Source of the DNA: a virus | IMG/VR virus record: IMGVR_UViG_3300008267_000206 | Span: 1-59,314 of that record | Strand: one strand, 5' to 3' | DNA: 59,314 bases | Shown here: positions 3,895-51,555 of the stretch, piece after piece | How positions within the stretch are numbered: position 1 is the stretch's first letter | How the letters are laid out: each line of letters begins with the position of its first letter | Position numbers and translations under genes: made by a program | The notes under the pieces: model-generated | Told to the model about the DNA's origin: nothing | The model's database searches: none | What the model saw: only the letters and a program-made list of their open reading frames with translations

Positions 3895-3919
3895 CAAAAA
3901 AGGGACTTAATTAGTCCCT
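3895..3919 (-). terminator. Terminator overlapping methyltransferase stop codon
   Basis: On the minus strand AGGGACT-AATTA-AGTCCCT forms a 7-bp stem followed by a T-rich tract interrupted by one G. The TAA stop of the methyltransferase gene (3907-3909) lies inside the hairpin. Confidence 0.75.
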
Positions 3920-5977: not shown

Positions 5978-6734
5978 AATTTTTAATATTAGTTGTTTTA
6001 AATTTTTTTGACCTTTGATTAATTTGAGACATTAATTTTCTTTTAAAGAGAGGTATTAGTGTTTCTTCAAATGGAAACATATCATTACATACCATTTCAA
6101 AAACAGGATATTTAATAACCTTCTCCTTATTGTCAAATCTACTTAAAACTTCCGATATTGTCAATTTTTCTTTACTTTCCCTATATAATAATTTTATGGT
6201 TGATTTCGTAACGTATTCAGAGTTTTTAACTTTTCTAATTGTGTATTCCCAAAAATAAACTTCTTCACCTTTAACATAAAAAAAGAACCCTTTTTTTGAG
6301 TTAATATTATCTTTATTTTTTCTAGTGACAATATCTATTGAATCATAAACAACCGACCAAAACGCCTTAACTATATTAAAATAATCAAGTAGTTTTGGTT
6401 GTGCCATTTTTAATATTTTTTGAAACTCGATCCTTTGTTCATCGGTCATTTCAGGAATATCTTTATATTTCAAATCCGTAATTAATATTTCTTCATCAGG
6501 TGATACTAACTTTTTATCGGTATATAAAATTTTGTGGTGTGATAATAATGATTGTACATTTCCCAAATGTAAGGATAATTCTGTAAACATTGGGTATAAC
6601 TTCATCTCTTCAAGAGAGTTATTTAACTTTTGAAAATAATTTAACAAAATATATTCTTTATGTTCAGAATCGATGGTACCTTTAAACATCCAGTCGGTAT
6701 CCATCATAAATTTTATTTTTGGTAATTTTTCCAT
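5964..6734 (-). CDS. Hypothetical protein, 256 aa
   Basis: A 256-residue soluble protein without a recognised family. The first 130 residues look helical (LNYFQKLNNSLEEMKLY), and the central part (about 145-185) looks like alternating beta strands with aromatic residues (GFFFYVKGEEVYFWEYTIRK). The C-terminus is strongly basic (KRKLMSQINQRSKKFKTTN), which might contact nucleic acid. It is the first gene of the compact operon running down to the methyltransferases, with a 35-nt gap to the next gene upstream. No promoter of either class is obvious in that gap. Confidence 0.6.
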   Translation of the reverse strand: MEKLPKIKFMMDTDWMFKGTIDSEHKEYILLNYFQKLNNSLEEMKLYPMFTELSLHLGNVQSLLSHHKILYTDKKLVSPDEEILITDLKYKDIPEMTDEQRIEFQKILKMAQPKLLDYFNIVKAFWSVVYDSIDIVTRKNKDNINSKKGFFFYVKGEEVYFWEYTIRKVKNSEYVTKSTIKLLYRESKEKLTISEVLSRFDNKEKVIKYPVFEMVCNDMFPFEETLIPLFKRKLMSQINQRSKKFKTTNIKNYGIQ

Positions 6735-6769
6735 ATTCGAAGTATAAAGAACAATAAAAGTTTTTTAAA

Positions 6770-8212
6770 TTATTTGTTAACCATCATAACATAAAATTTT
6801 TCATTCCCATAATAATATGGTCCTGAGTAATCACTATCATAACCATTCATAATACCCCATCCATCTGAATCCACCAATCCTTGAGCTAAATCATCTTCAT
6901 TAATATAATACTTAATTTCATAACCATGATCTCTGAGCCAATCCGCCGGATCATAAAGAACATCATCCCTAATTATTCTATTAAGTTTTTCTTCAATCAT
7001 ATCTTCAGTAGGTTCTTTATCAATTTCTATTGAGTCTAATTCCTCTTGAGCCTTATCAATGTTATCACCAATTTCATCAATTCGTTCATCTAAGTCATTA
7101 TATTCGTCGCTATTATGTTCAAATTCATCACGCTCATCTTCAAGTTCACTTTCTAAAGTTTTCATATCTTCGATATATTTCTCCAATTGTTGAATTCTCT
7201 TTTCTTGTTCATCAGTTAATTGGAAGTCATCGTCATCAAAATAAGATTCAGGATTATCTCTAATATCGTCTTCATAAAATTCTCTAGCCACCTGTTCTAC
7301 TTGGTCGTTATCAATATAATCATCAATAAATCCCTTGTTAAAACCATCAAGTCCGATATCATCAATATAATTTTTAGCATAATCAAGTGCCGCTTCTTCC
7401 ATTTCATCCTCAGTACCTACGGTAAATTCATAATCTTTAAATTCATATCTTGGTATCATAAAAACTGATAAATTACCATAATACCCACGATCTTGAAGAT
7501 ATAAATCATATAATCCTATTTTGTTATCAGTAATTTCTTCTAACTCGTCTTTGAAATTCTCTAATTCTTCTTCGAGTTCATCTATTTCTTCTTGTACCGA
7601 TTCATCTCCAGTTTCATTATATCTTTTTGTTAACTCTTCGATTTTGGTGGTTAGTAATTGGATATCGTTATTAATACTATTAACTCTATCTTTATCTTCA
7701 TCTGAAAGGACTTCAATATCTGTTTTTAAATAATTTTTACTTATAAATTCCATAAGAGCATTTGCCATCAATCCTTCTTTATCAATATTAGGATTGTTAA
7801 CATCTCTTTCATTATTGAGTTCTTTTTCTTTTAATTCTTCAAGCTCAGACGCCATCTCAGTTTCAATTCTTTTCCTTTCTCGAGGAGTTCCATGATCCCA
7901 TATATGACCATTAACGATTGTATTACCTAAACTAAGTATATTGGTTCTTGATATATCTAAAGTACCATCAATATAAGCAACATTACCTAAACTTTCTGTC
8001 GGAGTGTTTGAGATGGTTAATTTACCTGTAATATATAGTGGTTTTTTTTGGAATGTTTTTATTTTACTTAGACCAGGACCATTGTAACTTGCCAATCTCA
8101 TTAATTCCAAATATTCTTCAGGAGATATCCTATAATATTCGTCATCTACTTGTTCGTTTAATGTTTTAAGGATGTTTAAAACTTTTTTTTCTGAAAAAAT
8201 ATTTGTCTTCAT
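6770..8212 (-). CDS. Acidic coiled-coil protein with short leucine-rich repeats
   Basis: A 480-residue, strongly acidic protein. The N-terminus (MKTNIFSEKKVLNILKTLNE) is a basic/amphipathic helix like those of several likely virion proteins here. Residues about 50-105 hold short repeats of the form G-x-L-x-I-S-x-T-x-x-x-S-L-G-N (LTISNTPTESLGN, LDISRTNILSLGN), a degenerate leucine-rich-repeat type seen in large phages. Two long coiled coils follow (about 165-235 and 325-380, Glu/Asp-rich), then a Tyr/Asp-rich C-terminus. The exact role is unknown; a structural or internal virion protein is an inference. Confidence 0.55.
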   Translation of the reverse strand: MKTNIFSEKKVLNILKTLNEQVDDEYYRISPEEYLELMRLASYNGPGLSKIKTFQKKPLYITGKLTISNTPTESLGNVAYIDGTLDISRTNILSLGNTIVNGHIWDHGTPRERKRIETEMASELEELKEKELNNERDVNNPNIDKEGLMANALMEFISKNYLKTDIEVLSDEDKDRVNSINNDIQLLTTKIEELTKRYNETGDESVQEEIDELEEELENFKDELEEITDNKIGLYDLYLQDRGYYGNLSVFMIPRYEFKDYEFTVGTEDEMEEAALDYAKNYIDDIGLDGFNKGFIDDYIDNDQVEQVAREFYEDDIRDNPESYFDDDDFQLTDEQEKRIQQLEKYIEDMKTLESELEDERDEFEHNSDEYNDLDERIDEIGDNIDKAQEELDSIEIDKEPTEDMIEEKLNRIIRDDVLYDPADWLRDHGYEIKYYINEDDLAQGLVDSDGWGIMNGYDSDYSGPYYYGNEKFYVMMVNK

Positions 8213-14623: not shown

Positions 14624-15472
14624 TTAATTCATTATTAGTAATTCCGTTCCAACATTTTGTGTTTTACCTTTTTTAGCAGCGGCCGCCTTAACAAAATCTT
14701 TACTCTCCCATCTATAATCAGTTTTAGGAAACCATTCGTGTAACAAATCAAACTCATAATAAGATAAAGAAAATTTACCTTTAATATTCTTTAGAGTATT
14801 GGCCAGTCTTTCGTGGTCATTTCTACCAAATTCGTGATTAGAATAATAATTTCCTTCTCCCACTACGTAATAGGGGGGGTCAGTATAAAAATAAGTTTTT
14901 GGTGAATCGTATTTTTCAATGACCTCTTGAAAGTCCATATTTTCAACATTAGTTATTGATTCAAACATTCTTTGCCACTTAGGATTTTTTAATTTATTTT
15001 TAAAGGACGTGAATTTTGAATGGTATTTACCTTTCAAATCTATAAACTTTGATTTTGATGGATTTGCCCCTGAGAATACTTGAGTTAGTATGTAAACGTA
15101 TTTAGCCGCAATCTCATAATTAGGTTCGTCCCCAATAACCAAATTTTCAGAATATAGTTCTCTTTGAAAATTATTAAAGTTCTGTTCACATATCGGATTA
15201 GTAGGTGTTACGTCTTTTTGTTGTACAATCAACCTTTCACACTCCTCTAACAATCTTTGATGATTACTAATACATTTATACAAATTATAATTTAAAGGGT
15301 TAAAGTCGTTATATACTATTTTTTTTAGGTTAGGATACTCCTCTAAATTCATCCCAAAGAATATCCAAAATTGACCTGAGAATGGTTCAACATAAGTCTC
15401 AATATCTTTAGGTATAAAAGGAACTATAAATGTTTGCATTTTGCTTTTACCACCAATATAACTAATACACAT
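14624..15472 (-). CDS. D12-class adenine DNA methyltransferase
   Basis: A 282-residue Dam-family enzyme. ISYIGGKSKM (residues 3-12) and TYVEPFSGQFWIF (about 26-38) form the SAM-binding part, and YFYTDPPYYVVG (near residue 197) the catalytic motif. It is not a close copy of the methyltransferase at 4780-5568: the N-terminal motifs and spacing differ, so the two likely recognise different sites. The C-terminus contains a short Ala/Lys-rich stretch (VKAAAAKKGKTQNVG). No partner nuclease is adjacent. The upstream gap 15473-15569 contains no convincing promoter. Confidence 0.88.
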   Translation of the reverse strand: MCISYIGGKSKMQTFIVPFIPKDIETYVEPFSGQFWIFFGMNLEEYPNLKKIVYNDFNPLNYNLYKCISNHQRLLEECERLIVQQKDVTPTNPICEQNFNNFQRELYSENLVIGDEPNYEIAAKYVYILTQVFSGANPSKSKFIDLKGKYHSKFTSFKNKLKNPKWQRMFESITNVENMDFQEVIEKYDSPKTYFYTDPPYYVVGEGNYYSNHEFGRNDHERLANTLKNIKGKFSLSYYEFDLLHEWFPKTDYRWESKDFVKAAAAKKGKTQNVGTELLIMN

Positions 15473-24512: not shown

Positions 24513-25514
24513 TTACTCTTTAATGTAAGTTAAGATTCTTTTTCCCTCTGTAGTGGTAGTTGTTGTGGTAGTGATTTCTTCCTCAAATATTTCTTTTAAA
24601 GTTGTTGTGATAGTGTTTGTTTCTTCTTGGTAAATTGTAGGGTTATTCGTAACATTATTAAATTTTACCTCATCAATATTTATCGTGTTATCTTTTTTGA
24701 TATCCTTATCTAATTCTATTATTTGATTTTTTTCAGTTGTAGTATTAGTTATAGTTATTTCTTCTTTTTCAACTAAAGTAGTCGTTAAATTGATATTATC
24801 TTGGACATTTGTTGTTGTTATGGTTTCAACCATTTCTTCTTTTTTTATCAGATTCTCATCAGTTCTATTATTTTCATCAATTACTCGATTAACTAAATTA
24901 TCGTAATTAATATCTTCTTTATTACGAGCAATGATTTTTTTATTTAATTTTTCTTGTTCCTTTACATCTATGTATTCTGAAGTTAAAGTTTCTTTTTTAT
25001 CTTCAACAAGAACTTTTATTTTTTTATCTTCTTCGTTTAAAGTTTTTTTATTTGGGTCTTCATATTTTATGAAAAAATGTAATGATGTTAATGAAATTAT
25101 AGGTAATAATCCACCACCTAAAAACGCTAACCATCTTTTATGAACAATTACATCATTAACGTCTGAACCTAAGGCCTCCCAAACAGGCCCTGTCAATTCC
25201 ATCCAAGATTTAAATAAATCCCCTGTTGTGTCTATTTCTTTGTATGAAAAGAAGATATTACCTATCATTTGTATAAACGTGACTAATCCAAACATAATCC
25301 ATACACCACCCTTAATTTTATTTGTAGCGGCAACTAAGGCGGTCATTGCACCTATCTCTATAGCAATTGATAGATATATAGCCCAATTATACGGATTCAT
25401 AATATCGTACCAAGAAACTACGTGAGATATCGATATTATTGCAACAAGAATTATAGGGACTATAAACATAGCCCTATTAGGATTATTCTTAATCCATTCC
25501 CATATTTTTATCAT
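24513..25514 (-). CDS. Multi-pass membrane protein with Thr-rich tail
   Basis: A 333-residue protein. Four membrane helices are visible in the first 160 residues (AMFIVPIILVAIISISHVV, WAIYLSIAIEIGAMTALVAA, WIMFGLVTFIQMIGNIFFS and FLGGGLLPIISLTSLHFFI). The following 170 residues are cytoplasmic or exposed, charged, and rich in Thr/Asn/Glu, with EEEITTTTTTTTEGK near the end. Holin-type function is possible given the amidase gene 21 nt downstream, but the length is unusual for a holin. It overlaps the next membrane-protein gene by 4 nt. Confidence 0.6.
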   Translation of the reverse strand: MIKIWEWIKNNPNRAMFIVPIILVAIISISHVVSWYDIMNPYNWAIYLSIAIEIGAMTALVAATNKIKGGVWIMFGLVTFIQMIGNIFFSYKEIDTTGDLFKSWMELTGPVWEALGSDVNDVIVHKRWLAFLGGGLLPIISLTSLHFFIKYEDPNKKTLNEEDKKIKVLVEDKKETLTSEYIDVKEQEKLNKKIIARNKEDINYDNLVNRVIDENNRTDENLIKKEEMVETITTTNVQDNINLTTTLVEKEEITITNTTTEKNQIIELDKDIKKDNTINIDEVKFNNVTNNPTIYQEETNTITTTLKEIFEEEITTTTTTTTEGKRILTYIKE

Positions 25515-33674: not shown

Positions 33675-35942
33675 ATGGTAACAACAGGATGTTCATCAAC
33701 TTATTGTATACAAGGTACTAATTCCGTATGGGATGATGTTTATAGTGCTAACACAGGTTCAACGGTACCGTCATATAATGGTGAGTTATATTGGACTGGT
33801 TCAAGTAATGGTTATTTCATATATTATAAAAGTGCAACAACTCAATGGTGTTTATCAACGACTTTAGGTGGAGCTTGTTTATTATCAGGACCATCACCAT
33901 CACCTAATAGTTGTCCTAATTTATCACCATTTTTATTTAGTTCAGGTAATTGTCAATCAACTACAACAACCACAACTAATCCTTGTAATGATTTTGATTT
34001 TGAAGCGTATTTTGATTGTTATGTACCACCAACAACGACAACAACATCAACATCTACAACAACCACTACAACCACTTTACCTCCATCAATATGTTCAGGC
34101 GTTGGTGTTAACGCAATTGCCCAGTATGTTGAGCCTACCTCGACAACGACAACATCAACTACAACAATCGCTCCTATAGTTAGGGATTGCGTATTTTTTG
34201 GTGATGTAACATTTACAACGGTAAGTTCAATAATAGAGTGCCCTGGTTCTGATGGTGAACCTCTTAGTGAACAATTTCAAGATTGTTATACTGGCGAATT
34301 ACTATACGCACCAATACCAATTCTAACACCTAGCGGAAATACAATAACTAAATTTATGATTTTTAGAGCAACCGTTGATGGTGTATCTAGATGTATATCT
34401 TATTTAGGTCAAAATACTTGTAATACGGGAGTTAATAACATAATTCTAAATGAAGGTCCGATAGGATATTCTAATATAGGTCAATGTGATTTATGTGTTC
34501 CTCCACCTACCACAACAACAACGACAACAATTGCCCCTCCTTGTACTTCTTGTCCTGAAGGTTATGTTTTATTACCTGACGGATTTACTTGTGAAAAGAT
34601 TTTAGTTGAGTTGGCAACTCCACCGTTAAATCCAAGAATAATTGGTGTTAATTATGAAGATTATCCGGCAACATATGGCGGGGATGGGGGTTTAATAGTT
34701 TATGAAGAAATAACAAATAAGGGATGGCCTATTTTTGGTTTACCCAATAGACAAATACCTGTTTATTCACCACCATCAAATAATGATGCTAGTTTAAATA
34801 GTTTATCAATAATACCTAATAGTGGTTATACTAATCAAGGTGTTCTTTATACCTCGTTATCCCCATCATCATTACCCAATACCCCTCACGCTTCTTTGGA
34901 TTATCCATCAGGTTATTGGCCGGTAAGTCCTTGGCCTCCAACCAATAACCCACCAAATATACCTAATTTGTCCGGTTCTGTAACTCACGAAAGTTTATCT
35001 TATTTGTCGGAAAGTATTGTTATATCAAATGTTTTAAGCCTTGGTAGTGGTAGTTCTGTTAATATAGAATATAATAGACTAGATGGAATAAGTTTATTGT
35101 GGGGTAAGTCCAGTGTTCCAAATTCTTGGTCGTCAACCGTTGGTATTTGGTCAGACGCTCCCTCACCATATAACTCAAACCCTATTTATACATTGTCCAA
35201 TAGTTGGATTGGTATAACCCAATGTGTAACAATAGAGGAAGAAAAAAAATACTACTTATTGATAAATGCCAATAACTCTTTTAGACTCACTATTAACGGA
35301 TTATTGTCGGTTGAGATTAATAATGGTGATGGTGGAAAACAACCTTTAAAATTTGTAAATTGTTTTCCGATAACGTTACCCGCAGGAACTTCAACAATAT
35401 CTGTTGAGGCCGGTAATTATAGTGCCGGAGGTAATTTAGCGTTTGAATTATTAGATATTCCATTAGACATTTTATTATCCGCTTCAACATATTCTTCAAT
35501 AGAACCATATGTTTTATATTCAACCAAACAAAAAAGACCTAGAGCTTTCGACATTAACTTTATTAGTGGTAGCACAACCATAACTTCATCAGGTGAATTT
35601 TTACCGACAGATGTTGGTGGATTTGTTCAATTTCCTTCTTTTGTTTATTCCGGAACATATATTACGGAAGTTATAGATTCGAATACCGCAATAATTAATT
35701 CAGGTGCAACTGCAACAGGTTTAGGTTTATCGGGTAATACGAATGGACCTTCAACAGGAAGAGTATATTTTATATTCGATACCGGACAATTATTCGCTAG
35801 TGGTTTACCTCAAGGATTTACTTGTCCTGCGGGTTATACGTATGTAAATTGTGGAGGACCTACTTGTCTATCAATATCAAGAGTTTTTTGTCCGTCAATA
35901 CCCACCACAACAACAAGCACAACAACGATAGGTATTATATAA
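33675..35942 (+). CDS. Tail fibre/adhesin-like protein with poly-Thr linkers
   Basis: A 755-residue secreted-looking beta protein without signal peptide, typical of tail fibres. Cys-bearing domains are joined by at least four Thr-rich linkers (TTTTTTNPC near 98, TTTTTSTSTTTTTTTLPP near 118, TSTTTTSTTTIAP near 155, TTTTTTTIAPP near 279). A fifth, TTTTSTTTIGII, ends the protein. The N-terminal unit (NGELYWTGSSNGYFIYYKSA, then WCLSTTLGG) matches units in the 711-residue protein. The central part (about 330-640) looks like a receptor-binding or lectin-like domain, unrecognised. Ending on a linker suggests loss of a C-terminal domain. Convergent with the resolvase gene. Confidence 0.65.
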   Translation: MVTTGCSSTYCIQGTNSVWDDVYSANTGSTVPSYNGELYWTGSSNGYFIYYKSATTQWCLSTTLGGACLLSGPSPSPNSCPNLSPFLFSSGNCQSTTTTTTNPCNDFDFEAYFDCYVPPTTTTTSTSTTTTTTTLPPSICSGVGVNAIAQYVEPTSTTTTSTTTIAPIVRDCVFFGDVTFTTVSSIIECPGSDGEPLSEQFQDCYTGELLYAPIPILTPSGNTITKFMIFRATVDGVSRCISYLGQNTCNTGVNNIILNEGPIGYSNIGQCDLCVPPPTTTTTTTIAPPCTSCPEGYVLLPDGFTCEKILVELATPPLNPRIIGVNYEDYPATYGGDGGLIVYEEITNKGWPIFGLPNRQIPVYSPPSNNDASLNSLSIIPNSGYTNQGVLYTSLSPSSLPNTPHASLDYPSGYWPVSPWPPTNNPPNIPNLSGSVTHESLSYLSESIVISNVLSLGSGSSVNIEYNRLDGISLLWGKSSVPNSWSSTVGIWSDAPSPYNSNPIYTLSNSWIGITQCVTIEEEKKYYLLINANNSFRLTINGLLSVEINNGDGGKQPLKFVNCFPITLPAGTSTISVEAGNYSAGGNLAFELLDIPLDILLSASTYSSIEPYVLYSTKQKRPRAFDINFISGSTTITSSGEFLPTDVGGFVQFPSFVYSGTYITEVIDSNTAIINSGATATGLGLSGNTNGPSTGRVYFIFDTGQLFASGLPQGFTCPAGYTYVNCGGPTCLSISRVFCPSIPTTTTSTTTIGII

Positions 35943-35991
35943 TAATCTTATCCTGTAAACAGAATTCACAAATTGTAATAATACTAATTTT

Positions 35992-36014
35992 TACCGATTT
36001 TAAATCGGTATTTT
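35992..36014. terminator. Bidirectional terminator between tail and resolvase genes
   Basis: TACCGATTT-T-AAATCGGTA is a perfect inverted repeat followed by TTTT on the plus strand and AAAAA/TT on the minus strand. It lies between the convergent genes ending at 35942 and 36039. Confidence 0.65.
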
Positions 36015-36038
36015 AAATAAATTAATTAAAAATAATGA

Positions 36039-36638
36039 TTACCAAATTTTTTCTTGTTTCATATAACCAAGAACACAACAATAAGCGTCAGATTGGTCAA
36101 AATTCTCTTTTTTAAGAGTGTTGTTTTTGGTATATTGCCATTGTATTTGAGGTTCTCTTTTGGCAACCAACTCCCAAATGATTTGTTTTTTATCACAATC
36201 CTTTGGATATCCACCAAATAATACAAATTTACCCTTTTGGTTTTGTTGAACTAAATGTGGAAATGCGTTTTTTCTTGAATTATATGTTGATATAAATTCT
36301 GGGACAATTCCTAAAGTATCGTAAATTAATTTACATAAAAAACTATTAAATCTTAATAAAGTTTGTATTGTATAAATGTTATTAGAATTAAGTAAAGGCT
36401 CTTCTATAATAACTTTAGTAATCCCTAAATCAGTATATTGTATTAATTTAGTTTTAAAAATATCACTCTTTAAGAGAAGTTCTTTTATTTTATCTTCTTC
36501 TTTTGGTTTTGGTTTAGGAGAAATGTGAGTTAATTCTAATAATTCTTTAGTTTGAATATCGAATAGAGCCCAACCAATAGTGCTTGTGGAAATGTCAAGT
36601 CCTAAAACTTTAGGACTTTGCTTTAAATTTTTTTTCAT
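36039..36638 (-). CDS. RuvC-like Holliday junction resolvase
   Basis: A 199-residue RNase H-fold nuclease. KVLGLDISTSTIGWALFD holds the first catalytic Asp (Asp15). KVIIEEPLLNS (near 75-85) holds the Glu, and FDQSDAYCCVLGY (near 180-192) the C-terminal Asp-x-x-Asp-Ala motif. The order and spacing fit RuvC-type crossover junction endonucleases of large phages. It would resolve branched DNA before packaging. It is the last gene of the minus-strand tail operon, one base behind the 802-residue gene, an unusual place for a recombination gene. Confidence 0.8.
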   Translation of the reverse strand: MKKNLKQSPKVLGLDISTSTIGWALFDIQTKELLELTHISPKPKPKEEDKIKELLLKSDIFKTKLIQYTDLGITKVIIEEPLLNSNNIYTIQTLLRFNSFLCKLIYDTLGIVPEFISTYNSRKNAFPHLVQQNQKGKFVLFGGYPKDCDKKQIIWELVAKREPQIQWQYTKNNTLKKENFDQSDAYCCVLGYMKQEKIW

Positions 36639-36639
36639 A

Positions 36640-39048
36640 TTAAAAATCTAATTTAACTAAGAATTGCTGTGTCCCCTGTCTTAATACGGGTGACTGCAAC
36701 TTAGATATAATCATAAGATTTTTTTGATCATCGTAAAGACCAATCTCAGTAATAAATCTGCGCTCTGTAACACTCCAAGTCGGATTTGATGGTGTTTGAA
36801 ATTCTGTTTGACTTAAATTTATCTTATATCTCATCTCATATATCGTTGCCTCAATATCTGTTTCGATAGAACCATAAAAATAATATTCATCACCAAAATT
36901 AAGAGATGTTCCTGTATAGTTAATAGGTGTTAATGGTACATAGTCATCTAAATTATAAATTGGAGCATCATCATATAAATCCTTTGTAATTACAAAGGTA
37001 TTTTGGGTTAAACCATCCTGTGTAATATACCCATTAACCATACTATCATTTAGTTGGTCGGTAAAATCAATAACTCTCCATAACGCGGAATCGGGTCTAG
37101 ATGTTCCTGAAACTTTTTGAACTAATATTTCAAACTTATTAGCGTAATATCCTTCAATGTTACTACAATACGTTGGGCATGGGATTTCTGATGTTGTTGT
37201 CGTTGTTGTATATGGTGAAATAGGTTGTGTTAGACACCCGAATTCTTCACCAAATTGTAATGTAACATTTTGTGAATTGATATTATTACAATCAATATTA
37301 GGTCCTTGAATTTTACTATAATAATTACAATGTAGTGAATTTAGACAAAAATTATCGTCATTAAATCTATAAGTTACATATAAATATTCATCACTATTAA
37401 GTAATAATCCTGTTGAATTTCCTAATGTTCCGCAAACGTTAGGTGTTATTAACGCCAATTTTGGTGCCGGTAATGTCCAATTTCTATTTGATTTGTATGA
37501 CATAGCGGCAACAATTTCTTCATCGTCAAAAACTATCATTTTTTGGTCAGGAAATACTTTACCAACTCTATTTGGTCTTCCGTTACTAGGGTTAGGATTT
37601 GTATCCCATAGATGATAATATCTATGACCAGGGTTATTCATATCTAAATTTTTATTAGATTCTAAATAATAGATTTGGAATAGATTAAGATTTTCAAATC
37701 CTGGAGGGTCGACCCAAAATGTTTGACCATAACAACATTCAGGATTTTTATGCCACATTAACCAAGGTATATGAACTCTAAAATTTCTTGCTTGTCCCGT
37801 ATCACCAGGATTATCTTCATCAAAAGGTTCTAAAGCAAATTTCTCACCATAATACAACCCAGGAGAATTATTAGTATAATGAACTAATGATATCGCCTTT
37901 TGTTCTTCAGGTTCGACAAATACTATCTCACCTAAAGAGTTATAATAATAAACATAGTCGGTATCATTTTGACCCTTACTATTTGAATATCCAAAATATT
38001 CTTTAGATCCTAAATAATTGACAGAACCAAAATTTTCATAACCAAAATTTAATGTAGGATTTAATCCTGCGGGATTTTCCGACCAAGGGATATTCATATT
38101 CCAAACATTAGTATATGACATATCAAAATTACAATCAGTTTGAAAATCAATAACGTTTGGATTATATTTTGGAACAGGACTATCATATATAGTATTCATA
38201 TTCGGGGGATATACCATAGCCCTTATGTAACAATCTCCGCCTAACAATGATAAATTAGGTGTTGGTCTATCTAGTGTAACTTGATTATTACAAATTGATA
38301 CTATTCGATATGTCATCATTGGATGACAACTATTAACATTCATTACACAATCTATATATGGTGTTGGTGTTGGGCATGGAGTTTCTTCCGGTAATGGTAT
38401 TGTGGTTGTTGATGTTGTAGTTGTTTGGCACGGGTCATAAGTCGGTGTTGGTAATGGTATTGTTGTTGTGGTTGTGGTTTCACCTGTTAAACATTCACAA
38501 GTATTTGTAATTTCATAATTAAAAAAGAATGTTATAAAATCACCTTTTGCCGGTTGTCTAAATACGTTTTCACTACAAGCAGAATATATTAATGTGATAT
38601 TTTCATCACAAGTAAAGTCTGAAATATGAACAACATAATTAGAATTTATAGTGTAGTCTTCATTTATTAATAATTTCCAATCTATTTGGCTTAATTCGGT
38701 ATCTCCAACAAAAAATCCTTTTATTGCTGCAGTATTATATATTGGGGACACAACTGAATCTGAAAATGGTATACCATAAGTATTACCTGTTAGTCCGTCA
38801 ACATAGTACGGGTATTTAATATATTGTTTATTTGACTCCGGAACACCTGAGATATTACTTGAGTTAAATGATGGTTCTAAAACATATGAATTAGCTTGCG
38901 GAAAAGAAGGTATCGCGTCGTAAGATACTTCACTATCCCCAACTTGGAAATACGAAATATTAAAATTTCCTTGTGATAATTTTCTTCTACCAGTATCAGT
39001 TAATTTTGTATTGATTAACCCCGATGTATTTTTTAATACGTAAGACAT
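36640..39048 (-). CDS. Tail protein with Thr-rich linkers, 802 aa
   Basis: A large structural-type protein. The N-terminus (VLKNTSGLINTKLTDTGRRK, then LSQGNFNISYFQVGDSEV) is a conserved-looking domain likely attaching to the baseplate. Thr/Pro-rich linkers appear near 195-230 (ETTTTTTIPLPTPTYDPC, TTTTSTTTIPLPEETPCP) and near 620 (YTTTTTTSEIPCP). The middle (about 290-600) is rich in Asn, Tyr and Trp. The C-terminus carries VTERRFITEIGLYDDQKNLM, typical of tail-fibre-attachment or baseplate proteins. No enzyme motif. It lies between the resolvase and the 711-residue adhesin-like gene. Confidence 0.65.
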   Translation of the reverse strand: MSYVLKNTSGLINTKLTDTGRRKLSQGNFNISYFQVGDSEVSYDAIPSFPQANSYVLEPSFNSSNISGVPESNKQYIKYPYYVDGLTGNTYGIPFSDSVVSPIYNTAAIKGFFVGDTELSQIDWKLLINEDYTINSNYVVHISDFTCDENITLIYSACSENVFRQPAKGDFITFFFNYEITNTCECLTGETTTTTTIPLPTPTYDPCQTTTTSTTTIPLPEETPCPTPTPYIDCVMNVNSCHPMMTYRIVSICNNQVTLDRPTPNLSLLGGDCYIRAMVYPPNMNTIYDSPVPKYNPNVIDFQTDCNFDMSYTNVWNMNIPWSENPAGLNPTLNFGYENFGSVNYLGSKEYFGYSNSKGQNDTDYVYYYNSLGEIVFVEPEEQKAISLVHYTNNSPGLYYGEKFALEPFDEDNPGDTGQARNFRVHIPWLMWHKNPECCYGQTFWVDPPGFENLNLFQIYYLESNKNLDMNNPGHRYYHLWDTNPNPSNGRPNRVGKVFPDQKMIVFDDEEIVAAMSYKSNRNWTLPAPKLALITPNVCGTLGNSTGLLLNSDEYLYVTYRFNDDNFCLNSLHCNYYSKIQGPNIDCNNINSQNVTLQFGEEFGCLTQPISPYTTTTTTSEIPCPTYCSNIEGYYANKFEILVQKVSGTSRPDSALWRVIDFTDQLNDSMVNGYITQDGLTQNTFVITKDLYDDAPIYNLDDYVPLTPINYTGTSLNFGDEYYFYGSIETDIEATIYEMRYKINLSQTEFQTPSNPTWSVTERRFITEIGLYDDQKNLMIISKLQSPVLRQGTQQFLVKLDF

Positions 39049-39076
39049 TATATATAATTATTTTATATTAATTTTT

Positions 39077-41212
39077 TTATAGGAATAAATCATTAAAATT
39101 ATTACCTTTATTCATTAAACTTTTAAATGAAACATTTTTAGTTTTACCACCCATTAACATTATTTCTACAGGACATTCTCCCTCAGTAACAATTACACTA
39201 CCTGAAAGTCCTACAACTATCCAATTATTTAACGGTGGAAATTGTGAACCATTTTGAGATAAAACAAAATAAGTTCTAGAAGGATTAAATATTACTTCCC
39301 ATCTAGATGTTGAACTATTCCAAATTAAAGTATCTCCATTTGTTGATTCCCAAGATAATTTACCATTAACAACCACATCGGGTTGGAATTCTATAGATTC
39401 TGTAGTAGACCCTGTGCTCTGTATTGTAGTTATTGACATACAAAGAGTGTTTCCTGTTGGTTGTGGTGATATTGTAGTAGTAGTTGTTGTAGTCGGTCTT
39501 ACCGCCAATAATTCACAAATCGTTACCGCAGTAAAATCACCATAATAATCAGTTGTTGTTGCCGTGTAAGAACCTTCAACTAAATTAAATATGTCAGGAC
39601 CCAAATTACCATTACTCCAAATTATTTCATATGGAGATGTTCCTCCAGATATTGATAAAGATATTGATCCGTCAGCCGCTGAAGGTGATGTCGGATTTGT
39701 TGGTATACATTCAACGTCCATATCAAATACGGTTGTTGGTATACATTCATTACAAGTCGGTATTACATAGGGTATGGGGGTTGGTGTTGGAGTTGGCGGT
39801 AAAGTTGGTATTGGTCCACAAATCCTGGCCGAAACTATCATATTGTATGGTGCGATACAACAAGGAAACGAATTATATACGTCCCACGTCCCAAAAAAAG
39901 GACAGAAACCATTTTTCGCCCTACTTTCAGCAATAATTTGAAAAGTATTACTATTATAAAAAGCCCAAGTACCATCAAATCTAAAAAAAGTTATTCCATT
40001 AATAAATAAAGGATATCCATTTATTGTTCCTGAAGGAGTCGCATTGAACCCATATGGACGCGGTACTTCTCCTCCACAAATTATTGATACATTGATACAT
40101 CCACATATGTTTAAAGAACCGCAAATATTTGAACAAGATTTGTTGCTTTCAGTAATTAAAGTTAACGGTTCGCTACTTACGGGTTTATCAAACGCGCAAA
40201 CCTCCATAACATCTCCCACATATAAAAAAACTTTTTTCTCATCATCATTTAAATAATCATAAAAAGTGATTATTTCGTAATCAGTTGTTGCGGTAATTGT
40301 CCAACATTTTTTAATATTAAAATTTGGATAACAATCATAGGTTGTTATATTAAAATCTTCGTAATATGGGTCGTATATTGTCCAATTATCTAATCCGTTA
40401 CCTGTTGGTGGGCAAATACCGGTGTCGGCTGATTCGGCAATTATGGTGTTTGGTAAGTAATTATTTGATGGTGTCAGAGCAAATAACCATTTTCCGTCCG
40501 ACCAATAAATTATATACTCATCTCCACCATAATTAGTCGTCCAAAAAGTTTTGCCATTTTGAGTTCCCCCAACAACAAAACCCATATCATCACCATCAAG
40601 GGTTAAAATTAGACATTCACATCCGTCTATCTCTCTACATTCAATAAAACAAGAATTTAAAGTTTCCGAACTATAAAAATCTGAAGTAGTTCCTGGTATT
40701 CTTCCTGGTGTCCCTTTCAAACAAAAAGACATAGTTTCGCCAGATTTTAATCTAACGTATTTTAAATCATTATCACAATTATAATATTCTATAGTATAGT
40801 CATTACTACCACTAAAAAACCAACAATTACAATTTTCACAACTATAAAAATCCGCATAAGGATTACAATTATAAACTTCAGTAATATTTAAAATTTCTGA
40901 AGGCGGTTCTGTCTCATCTAAACAATAATTAAAATTGCTATTATTAATTAACTCCCAATCGCCAATTGTCGTATCACAAGGTGATAATGGTTGTGTTGTT
41001 GTTTTATAAATAATAGTTGATAAATCACCTTCTTCAATTAAGCACCACTCAGAATTTGGCGAACCCGAAAATAATAAACGATAATTTTTAGACCCTATAT
41101 TACCAATATAAATAGATTCTCCGTTAAATATTTCAATCCCCTTTGAAAAAACTAAATCAAACGTTGAGTCATCGGAGCATTTGAATGTAAAACTTACGCA
41201 TTCACAAGACAT
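39077..41212 (-). CDS. Cys-rich repeat adhesin with SprB-like domain
   Basis: A 711-residue protein made of repeated Cys-containing units of about 150-190 residues (CECVSFTFKC, CECLILTLDG, CGCINVSIIC as starts; each has a Gly/Tyr/Trp centre and a Gly-x-Cys-Pro end). Pro/Thr linkers follow (PTLPPTPTPTPIPY, near 455). An SprB-type repeat lies at about 485-550 (ISGGTSPYEIIWSNGNLG, LVEGSYTATTTDYYG), then TTTTTTISPQPTG. A last unit related to the N-terminus of the 755-residue protein ends it. It is probably a surface-exposed tail adhesin. The ATATTTATGA motif lies upstream, suggesting late expression. Confidence 0.65.
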   Translation of the reverse strand: MSCECVSFTFKCSDDSTFDLVFSKGIEIFNGESIYIGNIGSKNYRLLFSGSPNSEWCLIEEGDLSTIIYKTTTQPLSPCDTTIGDWELINNSNFNYCLDETEPPSEILNITEVYNCNPYADFYSCENCNCWFFSGSNDYTIEYYNCDNDLKYVRLKSGETMSFCLKGTPGRIPGTTSDFYSSETLNSCFIECREIDGCECLILTLDGDDMGFVVGGTQNGKTFWTTNYGGDEYIIYWSDGKWLFALTPSNNYLPNTIIAESADTGICPPTGNGLDNWTIYDPYYEDFNITTYDCYPNFNIKKCWTITATTDYEIITFYDYLNDDEKKVFLYVGDVMEVCAFDKPVSSEPLTLITESNKSCSNICGSLNICGCINVSIICGGEVPRPYGFNATPSGTINGYPLFINGITFFRFDGTWAFYNSNTFQIIAESRAKNGFCPFFGTWDVYNSFPCCIAPYNMIVSARICGPIPTLPPTPTPTPIPYVIPTCNECIPTTVFDMDVECIPTNPTSPSAADGSISLSISGGTSPYEIIWSNGNLGPDIFNLVEGSYTATTTDYYGDFTAVTICELLAVRPTTTTTTTISPQPTGNTLCMSITTIQSTGSTTESIEFQPDVVVNGKLSWESTNGDTLIWNSSTSRWEVIFNPSRTYFVLSQNGSQFPPLNNWIVVGLSGSVIVTEGECPVEIMLMGGKTKNVSFKSLMNKGNNFNDLFL

Positions 41213-41227
41213 ATCTTAATTATTTAT

Positions 41228-41237
41228 TCATAAATAT
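41228..41237 (-). promoter_or_regulatory. ATATTTATGA motif upstream of 711-aa gene
   Basis: A minus-strand copy 15 nt before the ATG at 41212, in the gap behind the glycosyltransferase gene. It has G at the variable ninth position. Confidence 0.45.
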
Positions 41238-42215
41238 TTAGTTTTCATTTTTAATTATGTTTTTCATAATTTCAATATACTTTATTGTTGAACTATTTTT
41301 GTCCACGTAATCGAAATGATTTATATTCTGTTTTAATTTATCCAATGGATTAACATTTATATATTCACCTTTATAAAATTTTCTACCTTTTAGGTCTTGT
41401 GTTACTCCCGCCATATGTAGAATTGGTTTTTTTTCATAGGTTCTAATATCATCGGTCGCCCAAGAAAAATCAAGTTCATCTGTTATTTTAGTTTCAATTC
41501 CAAGTAACCATATATTCCATAAAACCGCCCACATATCTGATGTCCACATTTGTATTTCCCCTGGAGAAATTGGGTGTTTTGCGTGATAATTTCTCATTTC
41601 AGAATATAAAACCAAACAATCTTTTAATACTTTATCCCAAAATGTGTGGTCAATATTTTTCATAAGATATTGAGCGCCTCCAGAATTATTCTGATTACGT
41701 TTAATACAATCGACATCAAGACCGATTACATTTACCATCACCCTCATCAATTCATTATCTTTACTTGACGGATGTTTTGATTCATATCTCTTACAACATC
41801 CCTCAATATAATCGTGACCTATATATCCTATGGTATCTGATAGGTAAATAAAATCATCTTTTGATAACTTATCAAAATCGGGTAATTCTCTGAACACAAT
41901 ATCTGAATCGTGATAAAAATAAAATTTAGATAGTTGTGGGTTATCTTTTAACCAACTAGATAAAATCATTGGTCTTAAACTAGGTATATAGGTTTTGTCT
42001 GTTCTAATATCGGTATAATGATGAACATTTACACCTAATTTTTTAATCTCTAAAGATTCTTTACTCGGTTCTTTTCTATTAACCAACGCAAATAAAACGT
42101 GTATGTTTTCAGGTTTAATACCTTTCTCAATAAAATTATGGCAATAAACTTTTGTTTGCCAATGAAAATAAGGCACGTCTGGTTGTGCAGAAACAAATAC
42201 TAATTCATTATTCAT
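41238..42215 (-). CDS. Glycosyltransferase (DxD type, Ser/Hyp galactosyltransferase-like)
   Basis: A 325-residue GT-A-fold enzyme. ELVFVSAQPDVPYFHWQTKV starts the nucleotide-binding fold. YFYHDSDIVFRE holds the Asp-x-Asp metal motif (Asp103, Asp105). NSGGAQYLMKNID and SDMWAVLWNIWLLG form the acceptor side, and ILHMAGVT supplies a C-terminal His. By eye this pattern is nearest to eukaryotic peptidyl Ser/Hyp glycosyltransferases (the HPAT/SERGT group), a family assignment from memory. It is set among genes for Thr-rich tail proteins, so modification of those is a reasonable inference; modification of host surface glycans is an alternative. Confidence 0.75.
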   Translation of the reverse strand: MNNELVFVSAQPDVPYFHWQTKVYCHNFIEKGIKPENIHVLFALVNRKEPSKESLEIKKLGVNVHHYTDIRTDKTYIPSLRPMILSSWLKDNPQLSKFYFYHDSDIVFRELPDFDKLSKDDFIYLSDTIGYIGHDYIEGCCKRYESKHPSSKDNELMRVMVNVIGLDVDCIKRNQNNSGGAQYLMKNIDHTFWDKVLKDCLVLYSEMRNYHAKHPISPGEIQMWTSDMWAVLWNIWLLGIETKITDELDFSWATDDIRTYEKKPILHMAGVTQDLKGRKFYKGEYINVNPLDKLKQNINHFDYVDKNSSTIKYIEIMKNIIKNEN

Positions 42216-43270: not shown

Positions 43271-46200
43271 TTAACATTCACTACAATCGTCATATATTTC
43301 CCCTTCTTCCCATATTATTGTTGCGGTTGATGTAACGGCAGATATCACTTCATAACAATTGTAATCGGTATCCGCAATTATCTTACCATCAACTTCATAC
43401 TGATCATCAATAGTTACAACTTCAGTATTTGGTGTAATACCGCTAACCATACACTCACCTAAACCTGAATCATAATAACTATAAATTTTTAAATCAGGAC
43501 TATCCCCAGATAAGTCAATAATTCTGTTATACCAATCTAAAAGACCTGTTCCTGTGAAAGGTCCGTTACAATTAGGTAAATAACTATTACTATCTATAGT
43601 CGTATTTGTTATTAATGTTGATAAAGGATATGTTAAGTCGGAACAACAATTATCAGGGTAATACATCACATCACTCATTTGGTCATAAAAATATACTCCC
43701 AATGTAGAATCGCATTTTTCTATAATATATATGTATAATCCTTCAATATCAAATAAAGATACGACCCCTTTATTACCATAAGTTTGGGTTTGTAATTCCC
43801 AATTATCGTCAAAAGTTAAACCACTTAAACAATATTTAGTCCTTATGTAATTTATGGTTGAATCGATAACTACACTGGTTGAGAAGCAGTCTAATGGTAT
43901 TGCATCTGAAAAATCAGTATCAGCACCTCCTCCCGGTAATTCCCAAAGTTGTAATTCAGGACAACAATTCTGAACTAAGTAATTTGTTGCACAAGCGTAA
44001 CAAGAAATTAAATATTTTATCACCATATTAATTATTACTTGTGCACCTCCCAAATTAGCGGAAATGTTTTCACAATCAGTTTTGACCTCAATAGTATTAT
44101 TTTCAGGGTCTATAATTACGGTATCAATACCATCATAACTTATTAATAATTCCGTAATTGCAGAATACCATAATTCATTGCTTGGGTAATCAGTTACACT
44201 ATCGCCAGTGAAAATATATTTTTCTTTAATGATTCCGTTAATATTAGTTTGTGCGATGAAAATGGTTTCATTAATAATACAATCTGTATCCGCAAATGTT
44301 AAATCATTAAATCCTTCTAACAATAAAGATTTAGGTCCTTTAACTAAGACAAATCCATTATTATCAAAATTAGAATCACAAATAGAAAATACTTCATATT
44401 GTTCAACATTATTCAAACCATTTACAAAAATAACTTCTGTTTTATTACAACCAATACTATCAGTTACTTCTAATGAATAAGTCCCAGCGGTCAAATTTGT
44501 CACCGTAATTCCTGTTTGACCATTAACATTAGGACTCCAATCTAAAGTAAATGGAGGCGTCCCTTCTGTAATAAAGGCGGTTATTGTTCCGTTACCACCT
44601 AAATCCGCAGGTGTTGATACTAAATTGAAGTCTATAGAACTTGTTGATAGTATACTAAAATTAACATTTTGTCCGCAATTAGTTGAGTCGGTTACGGTTG
44701 CCGAATAGTTACCGGGTGTTAAACCTGTAAATGTATAGCTAAGTCCTGTAAAAATTGCGAATTGGTCATTTATTTCATAGGTATATGGTTGTGTTCCTCC
44801 GGTACTAATATTTAATGTAACTTCACCTTCTGAAGAATTACAAGCACTACCTACCGTTGTTGCACTTAATCCAAATTTACTAGTATTATTTATTGTAAAC
44901 GTACTATTATAAACACAAGTTCCAATTCCACTATCTTCAATTTCTATACTATATATACCCGATTTTAAACCTGAGAATGTAGCGTTGGGTGTGGTCATTG
45001 AAGTTTGATTGTATGTGTTTCCACTACTATCAGTTATTTTAAAATTGTATGGTGCCGTTCCTCCGACCAAAGAAATAACCACTTTACCCGAACTATCATT
45101 ACAAAAAGAATTTGTTGTGTTAAAACTAACTAATGTAAACGAATTTGGCGTCAATAATGTTATACTTTGAGTGAAAGTACATAACCCAGCGTCGGTAACC
45201 GTAACGGTAAAATTACCACTACCTAAACCTGTAAATGTATAACTTTGAGCAAAACTAATACCATTTACACCATTAGACCCTAAGTAACTATATGGTGGAG
45301 TTCCTCCAATAACATTTACCGTTATTTCACCATCACCAACAAAACAACTAGGTGGTGTTAAATCAAAAGAACCAAAACTTACGGGTTCAACATCAATTAC
45401 CGTTGCGCCTAATGTTTTAATACAACCGGTAGAATCTTCTACTTGGACGCTATAACTACCTGACGTTATTCCTGTAATATTCTGCGTTGTTTCTCCGTTA
45501 CTCCACAGATAGGTATATGGTGGTGTTCCGGTTAAACCTGTAATATATATTGCACCAGCGTTATCTACAGAACATCCGGCATTATTTACAACATAAAAAC
45601 CATAATCAACGGTTATAGAACTTTTTACCAAAAACGTGGCACTTTGTCCTGTACAACCCCCTCCATCATCACCAATCACATAATAATAACCTCCCTCAAC
45701 GTCATTAAAAACGTATGTGTCAGATATTAGTGTTCCGGAAGTAACATATGTTCCATCTTGTTCGTATAGACTAAATGTTGCCAATCCGTAGTAATTTGAG
45801 GTTTCCGCGGTAATCGCACCATTTGGTAAATCACATAAAGTATCTCTAATACCTGTTATTGAAACGCTAGTTCCGCTAGAAATGTAGATATCGATAGTGT
45901 AAACGTTATTTATTGGTAAACAACTATCTATTAAATTAATTGTGTAAGTTCCCGCATATAAATTTGTTTGAGTATAAGTTGTTACACCAATCCCTAAAGG
46001 TACAATATCGGAAGGTTGTAAAGAAATTACGGTTATTGTTATATCGTTAGCCGGAGTAGCTCCACCAACGTTAGTTCCTAAAATGGTTAGAATGTCACCG
46101 ACTTGGTAATTAGTTCCAGGTGTTGATAAATTTAAATTGTAAGTAGTATTTATTTTAGTTACGTTAAAACTCGCTAAAGTTCCTGACCCGCCATTAACCG

Positions 46201-46405
46201 GCACATTAGGATAGTAATTATTTGGTCCTGGAGGTACGACAGATCCAGTTCCAACAAATGTATAACCTGAAACACCTGTGCCAGGGTATAATTCTTGTAT
46301 TGAGTAGTCGGGAGCACTCCCATAAATTTCTATTGTATATGCCCCTAATCCGGCATTTCCGCAGTCACCTGTAACTGATAAATTATATGATAAAGCACAA
46401 GACAT
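43271..46405 (-). CDS. Large tail adhesin with tandem SprB-type repeats
   Basis: A 1044-residue protein. An N-terminal part (1-185) is followed by about five SprB-like repeats of about 70-80 residues between 270 and 655. Examples are GLTGTPPYTYLWSNGETTQN, VIGGTPPYSYLGSNG, LVGGTAPYNFKITDSSGN, STGGTQPYTYEIND and ITEGTPPFTLDWSPNVNG; each ends in a Gly-x-Tyr/Phe-x-Val-x-Val/Ile-x-Asp segment. A divergent copy lies at 185-260. The C-terminal 350 residues are Cys-rich and unrecognised. The repeat is named after SprB, a flavobacterial gliding adhesin. It overlaps the upstream gene by one base (TAATG). Confidence 0.75.
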   Translation of the reverse strand: MSCALSYNLSVTGDCGNAGLGAYTIEIYGSAPDYSIQELYPGTGVSGYTFVGTGSVVPPGPNNYYPNVPVNGGSGTLASFNVTKINTTYNLNLSTPGTNYQVGDILTILGTNVGGATPANDITITVISLQPSDIVPLGIGVTTYTQTNLYAGTYTINLIDSCLPINNVYTIDIYISSGTSVSITGIRDTLCDLPNGAITAETSNYYGLATFSLYEQDGTYVTSGTLISDTYVFNDVEGGYYYVIGDDGGGCTGQSATFLVKSSITVDYGFYVVNNAGCSVDNAGAIYITGLTGTPPYTYLWSNGETTQNITGITSGSYSVQVEDSTGCIKTLGATVIDVEPVSFGSFDLTPPSCFVGDGEITVNVIGGTPPYSYLGSNGVNGISFAQSYTFTGLGSGNFTVTVTDAGLCTFTQSITLLTPNSFTLVSFNTTNSFCNDSSGKVVISLVGGTAPYNFKITDSSGNTYNQTSMTTPNATFSGLKSGIYSIEIEDSGIGTCVYNSTFTINNTSKFGLSATTVGSACNSSEGEVTLNISTGGTQPYTYEINDQFAIFTGLSYTFTGLTPGNYSATVTDSTNCGQNVNFSILSTSSIDFNLVSTPADLGGNGTITAFITEGTPPFTLDWSPNVNGQTGITVTNLTAGTYSLEVTDSIGCNKTEVIFVNGLNNVEQYEVFSICDSNFDNNGFVLVKGPKSLLLEGFNDLTFADTDCIINETIFIAQTNINGIIKEKYIFTGDSVTDYPSNELWYSAITELLISYDGIDTVIIDPENNTIEVKTDCENISANLGGAQVIINMVIKYLISCYACATNYLVQNCCPELQLWELPGGGADTDFSDAIPLDCFSTSVVIDSTINYIRTKYCLSGLTFDDNWELQTQTYGNKGVVSLFDIEGLYIYIIEKCDSTLGVYFYDQMSDVMYYPDNCCSDLTYPLSTLITNTTIDSNSYLPNCNGPFTGTGLLDWYNRIIDLSGDSPDLKIYSYYDSGLGECMVSGITPNTEVVTIDDQYEVDGKIIADTDYNCYEVISAVTSTATIIWEEGEIYDDCSEC

Positions 46406-50379: not shown

Positions 50380-51555
50380 TTACTGATTTATTATTTTAAA
50401 AAACTTATATCCATATTTTGTTAAATCCCCAACATTATCGACTTCACCTAATCTTTGTAAACTTTCAAGACCGGATAATTTACCTCTCTCTATTGAGACA
50501 TCGCTTTCTACTTGTGGTTCATCAATAACATTCAATAATAGATTATCTTTAGTTAATGCCGAACACACTAACATATCTTGAGTATAACCATAAGATAAAA
50601 CTTCAAATGTTGTAGCTCCGTTAATGTAATCTCGATATGAAATATCATTTATGGTATATGAAGTGTATGCGTTGTCCGAAGATGGTCCGTAAAAAGTTCC
50701 AATACATCCTGAAGTTCCTGTTACTTGAATTCCGATTTTAAATTTACCGGCAAATAAACTAGATTTAGGTCCGTATTGTTGTAAATCATTAACTGATGAT
50801 GTGGTGTAACCTGTTACCAAAAAAGGTACTGTTGTGTAATTACTACTAATTTGTTCATCAACGTCACAATAAGAATCACCTGTGAAAATATAATCATAAT
50901 TAATTGGTGTTGCCGACCAATTACCTCCTTGTGGATAAAAAGTTGCTGTACCATAAGGATTACTTATTGATGCTTCGGTAAAAGGGACTATCACCTCTTT
51001 TTTTACAACATTAACACCCCAAGGACTCGCTCCTGAGAATGTTATTGTGAATTTTCCATTGTATCCATAGGTATGTATATAATAATTAGGTGAAAATGTT
51101 GTTACCGTCTGAACCGGTGTTCCATCACCCCAATCTAAGGTAAAATTACTGAATTGTAGATATTTTTTATCTTTATCAATAGTATTGTAAAAATAATATG
51201 TGTTCGGATCTATGGTGGTTGATGAGAACAGGAAATTTAACATAGTGTCTTTTTGTAAGACAGCTCCGTCAAAAACACTATAATAACCTAAATCAATAGT
51301 TTCTTGAGTTAATAAAATAGGTATGGTTAATCCTGTAAATAAAGATGTCTGACCGGTTCCACCTGATAAAACTTGGGTCATAGATGAATAAACGTAAGTT
51401 GTTCCAGTGTATTTTGAAGTGGTTGTAGTTGTTACAATGTCGCAACAAGGGTCATCAATAACTTCAGGAATTATTTCTCCGTAGGTATATGTTACAGGGA
51501 ATATTGTGTTAACAACTTCGGGTGATATTTTTATATAATATTTTCTATCTTCCAT
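50380..51555 (-). CDS. PKD-like tail protein, 391 aa
   Basis: An N-terminal strand region is followed by a short Thr linker (CCDIVTTTTTSKYTGTT, about 38-54). Near residue 140, NFTLDWGDGTPVQTVTTFSP and YYIHTYGYNGKFTITFSG match the PKD-domain pattern (Asp-Trp-Gly-Asp-Gly-Thr ... His-Thr-Tyr). The C-terminal end (GKLSGLESLQRLGEVDNVGD) is Gly/Leu-rich and may interact with the baseplate. PKD folds mediate protein or glycan contacts in many tail proteins. It overlaps the next gene upstream by one base. Confidence 0.65.
   Translation of the reverse strand: MEDRKYYIKISPEVVNTIFPVTYTYGEIIPEVIDDPCCDIVTTTTTSKYTGTTYVYSSMTQVLSGGTGQTSLFTGLTIPILLTQETIDLGYYSVFDGAVLQKDTMLNFLFSSTTIDPNTYYFYNTIDKDKKYLQFSNFTLDWGDGTPVQTVTTFSPNYYIHTYGYNGKFTITFSGASPWGVNVVKKEVIVPFTEASISNPYGTATFYPQGGNWSATPINYDYIFTGDSYCDVDEQISSNYTTVPFLVTGYTTSSVNDLQQYGPKSSLFAGKFKIGIQVTGTSGCIGTFYGPSSDNAYTSYTINDISYRDYINGATTFEVLSYGYTQDMLVCSALTKDNLLLNVIDEPQVESDVSIERGKLSGLESLQRLGEVDNVGDLTKYGYKFFKIINQ

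Follow-up and report, generated by a model that had tools for sequence, protein, structure and literature searches.

The window analysed here, the whole 59,314-base stretch of virus record IMGVR_UViG_3300008267_000206, carries a gene for a predicted glycosyltransferase together with three large genes whose products contain runs of threonine (Table 1). All four open reading frames (ORFs) were present where a first-pass annotation had placed them; the Thr-run genes differ in strand, the two coding for the 711- and 802-residue proteins sharing that of the enzyme gene and the third lying opposite. Runs of five or more Thr (T5+) occur nine times across the window, and these three genes hold seven of the nine; shuffling the residues within each protein gives an expectation of 0.076. 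The runs are encoded by mixed ACN codons (e.g., ACA ACG ACA ACA ACA TCA ACA TCT), which rules out DNA slippage or simple triplet repeats as their source, and we therefore conclude that selection acts on the protein. The three products had been labelled as tail-type, a label that found no backing, as PHROG and Pfam searches gave a name to none of them. A structural model of the 802-residue protein was poor (predicted local distance difference test, pLDDT, 58) and had no fold match in a structure search, so its tail role stays putative. Its runs lie in the low-confidence segments 188-231 and 611-627 of that model, as would be expected of linkers.

The enzyme matched phrog_4417, listed in PHROG with function unknown, at an E-value of 9.9e-71, with residues 7-320 aligned to positions 3-291 of the 293-position profile. 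No Pfam or NCBIfam model exists for it, and the window protein reached no Pfam family at E up to 1. The AlphaFold2 (AF2) model (pLDDT 97.1; predicted template modelling score, pTM, 0.93) shows a GT-A glycosyltransferase fold whose best match is glycogenin (219 residues, Z 16.1, root-mean-square deviation 3.1), with further matches to LgtC (Z 14.3), UGGT (Z 14.2) and GlyE (Z 13.8). AgtA (the Skp1 galactosyltransferase), WbbM, LARGE1 and XXYLT1 were also among the structural neighbours, the listed Z values spanning 13.4-16.1; identity to the enzyme is about 8-13%, and several of these neighbours act on proteins. The fold, together with the invariance of D103 and D105 in 81 relatives, supports the earlier assignment of the gene as a DxD glycosyltransferase. 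We take the C-terminal His/Lys stretch to recall the GT8 HxxGxxK motif, with a longer spacing, and D103, D105, H267 and K282 are presumably the residues expected in GT8 enzymes for uridine diphosphate (UDP)-sugar and metal binding. The GT8 Pfam model matched none of the 81 family members at E up to 1 among the matches listed, and each of the 25 Pfam families listed, of 26 matched at that threshold, was reached by at most two members; because membership by sequence fails, we describe the enzyme as working like the GT8 type and do not file it as GT8. Searches of PDB sequences with the protein and with the 81-row profile returned nothing or chance matches only. A kinship with peptidyl Ser/Hyp glycosyltransferases, read earlier from the motifs, gained no support: the closest structural neighbours were glycogenin, UGGT and LgtC, with 8-12% identity, there is no family match, and peptidyl Ser/Hyp enzymes were absent from the listed PDB fold matches, such absence being no proof. 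From the model we infer that the enzyme may transfer a sugar from a nucleotide donor.

We then scanned the neighbours of the enzyme gene at 158 loci. The gene directly upstream carried a T5+ run in 92 of 154 cases, compared with 27/1064 among genes at a distance of at least six positions. In all 92 pairs the two genes share a strand, and the gap between them has a median of 30 bp. When the enzymes were collapsed to 61 clusters at 60% identity, the corresponding figures were 19/60 and 4/361 (p 3e-14), and the T5+ frequency fell to about 1% at an |offset| of 7 or more. Poly-Ser was absent from the directly upstream gene (0/154), and strong upstream enrichment was seen for Thr alone among amino acids, which rules out an effect of homopolymers in general. 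Loci without tags were considered as plain untagged phages, a view that was dropped as they are mostly chromosomal loci for ribosomally synthesized and post-translationally modified peptides (RiPPs). The window's own subgroup has its Thr-run gene downstream of the enzyme rather than upstream.

Co-occurrence of the enzyme with Thr-run genes across phages had been set as a test beforehand, and we approached it from the acceptor side in three families, with the tail-tube and capsid profiles built without the tag. Among 80 relatives of the tail tube (the Bacillota major tail protein, Pfam Phage_TTP_1), 17 had both the Thr run and the enzyme, 63 had neither and none was discordant; in the 17 pairs the run is C-terminal and the enzyme gene lies 0-345 bp downstream. 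On the tail-tube tree, run and enzyme changed together 9 out of 9 times, or 5 out of 5 on well-supported branches. The Lacticaseibacillus-type major capsid family gave 13 with both, 13 with neither and one with the enzyme only, and in this lone discordant case the reading frame of the major capsid protein is broken and the Thr run is present in another frame. For the family of the 802-residue protein, counted where the contig covers the enzyme's site, 45 members had both, 24 neither, five the enzyme only and none the poly-Thr only; in four of the five enzyme-only members, a neighbouring gene bears a Thr run. Pooled over 181 relatives this amounts to 75 with both, 100 with neither, 0 with the tag only and six with the enzyme only, counts that include related loci, so that Fisher values on them are not probabilities of independent events. 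A search of 21 enzyme-negative records, which are fragments, for an enzyme located elsewhere in them found none. The enzyme gene and Thr runs thus pair near-strictly in three unrelated protein families. Proline following the runs had been put forward as a classic O-glycan acceptor context; it does flank some runs, but Thr-Pro repeats occur in the 802-residue family both with the enzyme (39/50) and without it (22/24, p 0.2), and they were rejected as acceptors. As Thr-Pro linkers lack such a link, it is the Thr runs that pair with the enzyme.

In Bacillota phages the Thr run forms a C-terminal tail with a short end, on the tail tube and/or the capsid protein. The tail tube of Lactococcus phage 1706 ends in TTTTTTTTTTHHD and its protease-capsid fusion in TTTTTTTTTHHD, while in PLE3 the capsid ends in PTTTTTTTSK and the tail tube in TTTTTTTSK, so that in both phages the same tag closes capsid and tail tube. 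The bIL285 major tail protein ends in TTTTTTTTTRHD and the tail tube of Enterococcus phage VPE25 in TTTTTTTTTTAGK, and the tag was found on three dissimilar capsid proteins. In the bIL285 prophage, from L. lactis IL1403, the enzyme is orf45 and has a DSD motif. The restriction to fibres that had been assumed is not supported by these locations. Enterococcus phage 9183 has a degenerate tag, TTTDPVTTTSTTRQ, and LP65 orf49 is a more distant enzyme beside divergent tags of the form TTTETQTQTQ. One such tag is borne by LP65 orf51, a relative of a T-tagged Bacchae protein; its annotation describes a structural protein detected by two-dimensional gel and mass spectrometry. In the window lineage the runs are internal, as linkers in large proteins.

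Profile searches found at least 571 loci with relatives of the enzyme in IMG/VR and 67 in bacterial genomes. The family was present in 74 isolate phage records, nearly all from Lactobacillus, Enterococcus, Staphylococcus and Lactococcus; a single Chryseobacterium phage and a single Arcanobacterium phage are included, and no mycobacteriophage was among the 74. The family occurs with both Gram-positive and Gram-negative hosts, and its gene adjoins annotated major tail or capsid genes inside structural operons. In phage 9183 (locus L320), the relative at 6001-6870 is annotated by homology to a Streptococcus PqqD-family peptide modification chaperone, hinting at further peptide-modifying contexts in Bacillota.

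Relatives on Bacteroidota chromosomes (Pedobacter, Sphingobacterium, Chitinophaga, Niabella and others) are mostly longer proteins. Some, including L097 and L112, are fused to a second C-terminal domain, which in L097 matches Glyco_transf_7C (galactosyltransferase, Pfam); the match suggests that this domain may serve glycan extension. RiPP clusters with enzyme relatives contain double-glycine precursors (TIGR04149 family), LANC_like proteins, C39-peptidase exporters and radical S-adenosylmethionine (rSAM) maturases. At three loci (L142:9636-9872, L147:9615-9863 and L360:1133), a precursor with T5-T7 lies directly upstream of the relative, and the Thr runs follow the GG motif, for example NVLGGTNLDETTTTTTTGMQC. 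Strains of Niabella and Sphingobacterium are among those with T7/T6 precursors. As peptides are the natural substrates in RiPP clusters, this context supports a peptide or protein acceptor.

Table 1. Enzyme, Thr-run proteins and further genes with Thr runs in the window.
Feature	Coordinates	Strand	Basis or remark
Predicted GT-A-fold glycosyltransferase, 325 aa, phrog_4417	41238-42215	-	Profile match and AF2 model
D103-S104-D105, DxD metal/UDP-sugar motif	41901-41909	-	Both Asp invariant in 81 aligned relatives
H267..A269-G270..K282, C-terminal His/Lys stretch	41370-41417	-	H267 and K282 invariant, A269/G270 at least 90% (81 relatives)
711-aa Thr-run protein, weak SprB-like repeat	39077-41212	-	Next gene downstream of enzyme
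Run PTTTTTTT in 711-aa protein	39473-39496	-	
802-aa Thr-run protein	36640-39048	-	Its family is the window-lineage control
Run TTTTTT in 802-aa protein	38461-38478	-	
Run TTTTSTTT in 802-aa protein	38401-38424	-	
Run TTTTTTS in 802-aa protein	37189-37209	-	
755-aa protein, five Thr-run segments	33675-35942	+	Strand opposite to enzyme
Run STTTTTT in 755-aa protein	33957-33977	+	
Run PPTTTTTSTSTTTTTTT in 755-aa protein	34026-34076	+	
Run PTSTTTTSTTT in 755-aa protein	34134-34166	+	
Run PPPTTTTTTT in 755-aa protein	34500-34529	+	
Run PTTTTSTTT in 755-aa protein	35901-35927	+	Near C-terminus
391-aa protein, run TTTTTS (T5) at 51415-51432	50380-51555	-	Same minus-strand gene block
333-aa protein, T8 near C-terminus (24549-24572)	24513-25514	-	Apparent N-terminal transmembrane segments (by eye)

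Elsewhere in the window, the product of 24513-25514 is a possible further acceptor, encoded far from the structural block. Near the enzyme gene, 43271-46405 encodes a 1044-residue protein that contains five SprB repeats (Pfam E 2.1e-24); SprB is a domain of surface adhesins in Bacteroidota. The window also encodes SbcC, a sigma factor, a RuvC-like resolvase and three separate DNA methyltransferases (3907-4770, 4780-5568 and 14624-15472). A relative of the window phage encodes, near the enzyme, an 879-residue protein (L003:15648-18287, minus strand) with 41% Thr and mucin-like TPTNTITPTNTETPTQTP repeats.

We propose, with a probability of about 0.86, that the enzyme is a phage-borne protein O-glycosyltransferase dedicated to the phage's own virion proteins, in which Thr runs would act as acceptors. 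The co-occurrence and the glycosyltransferase fold support the earlier idea of a phage-encoded enzyme devoted to its own Thr runs. The enzyme would be made with the late proteins and would use a UDP-sugar and a metal ion in the infected cell, so that Thr residues would be glycosylated before or during assembly. Single sugars may be placed onto the hydroxyls of many Thr in the flexible, disordered tag, in a reaction that is probably retaining, like that of GT8-like enzymes. In Bacillota phages the acceptor would be the tag at the C-terminus of the tail tube and/or capsid protein, and in the window lineage the internal linkers of large proteins; the finished virion would bear a sugar coat on its tail or capsid or on accessory proteins. 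Candidate benefits are linkers that are stiff and resist proteases, protection against antibodies or host factors, and adhesion.

Several observations weigh against this proposal. Glycosylation is read here from genes and a predicted structure, and we infer the virion location of the window's own proteins. Sequence searches tie the phrog_4417 relatives to no characterized glycosyltransferase. At locus L308 the enzyme stands without any T5 run in its vicinity, and T5 runs are missing from most RiPP-type loci (at offset -1 they occur in 1/25 clusters). In six enzyme-negative loci of the 802-residue family, all fragment records, a neighbouring gene carries a T5 run, and support for independent changes in the tree of this family is weak.

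The enzyme and tags could also form one cassette that modifies proteins with a group other than a simple sugar, such as a phospho-sugar or a nucleotide. GT-A-like folds include nucleotidyl- and phosphotransferases, and the family has no sequence link to a characterized enzyme; however, the nearest folds with high Z (glycogenin, LgtC, UGGT, GlyE and LARGE1) are glycosyltransferases and the DxD with the invariant His/Lys fits GT8-like sugar transfer, which makes this alternative unlikely. We regard it as very unlikely that the pairing merely reflects the common descent of a few mosaic operons and has no basis in function. While many of the loci are related and the well-supported branches of the 802-residue tree demand few independent changes, the pairing spans three unrelated protein families and two bacterial phyla, involves 5-9 joint changes in the tail-tube tree, fades with distance from the enzyme gene as described above and is accompanied by a separate RiPP context. 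Phages do carry glycosyltransferases that alter host surface glycans (lipopolysaccharide or teichoic acid) against superinfection, and LgtC, a lipooligosaccharide enzyme, has the same fold. That the window enzyme is one of these, with the Thr runs as unrelated spacers, is highly improbable given that none of the 75 poly-Thr genes in the three controls lacked the enzyme where its place was visible, that the gene sits inside structural operons beside tail or capsid genes, and that one family spans Gram-positive and Gram-negative hosts. Glycosylation of DNA bases, for which phages do encode glucosyltransferases acting on the hydroxymethylated bases that DNA glucosylation requires, or of another non-virion target deserves almost no credence, as the enzyme pairs with Thr runs and occurs beside RiPP peptides.

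Virion glycosylation in mycobacteriophages was reportedly treated by Freeman et al. in Cell Host Microbe in 2023. Two papers that cite this work associate phage-encoded glycosyltransferases with glycosylated mycobacteriophage virions (PMC13313380, PMC12894461), so that phage-encoded virion glycosylation is known in itself. That system and the window share phage-encoded glycosyltransferases, associated in the former with glycosylated virions, and the portions available of its citing papers do not describe a poly-Thr tag or a GT8-like enzyme. Our literature search found no paper on poly-Thr phage tags or on this enzyme family; the family, the tag and their breadth appear to be new, whereas phage virion glycosylation is not.

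Glycogenin and the GT8 and GT24 enzymes (UGGT, LgtC, AgtA, XXYLT1) resemble the phage enzyme in GT-A fold, DxD and, less exactly, C-terminal His/Lys but differ in substrates, and identity is low, the phage enzyme having no Pfam match. GlyE, one of the fold matches, is of the GT8 type and acts in the streptococcal serine-rich-repeat adhesin pathway, where the surface protein served is of low complexity and rich in Ser/Thr. This pathway is a host system with Ser-rich repeats and several enzymes, in contrast to the single enzyme and Thr runs of the phage system. Glycosylated RiPPs (glycocins and related) are small peptides onto which glycosyltransferases place sugars, and the Bacteroidota relatives likewise occur in RiPP clusters, but the glycocin S-glycosyltransferases belong to a family different from phrog_4417. 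Chlorovirus PBCV-1 glycosylates its own capsid protein with self-encoded enzymes; it differs from the window phage as an unrelated virus with an unrelated glycan type, and we know of no poly-Thr tag in it.

Altogether, these results suggest that many phages coat themselves with sugars by means of a dedicated tag-and-enzyme pair. We consider it probable that the poly-Thr tag and its cognate GT8-like enzyme form a portable two-part system, common to Bacillota and Bacteroidota phages and Bacteroidota RiPP pathways, which decorates unrelated capsid, tail-tube and large accessory proteins as well as secreted peptides. If so, this would be tag-programmed protein O-glycosylation, movable to any flexible terminus, and one small enzyme with a homopolymer acceptor would offer a simple tool for placing dense O-glycans on proteins. 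A PHROG family listed as unknown would gain a function. Virions with a sugar coat would then be much more widespread than the mycobacteriophage examples imply, given the number of relatives in IMG/VR, and some would belong to phages that have been studied well, for example Enterococcus VPE25 and Lactococcus 1706; this has a bearing on phage immunogenicity and stability. They would represent a so far unseen class of virion modification, testable by intact-mass measurement of existing phages.

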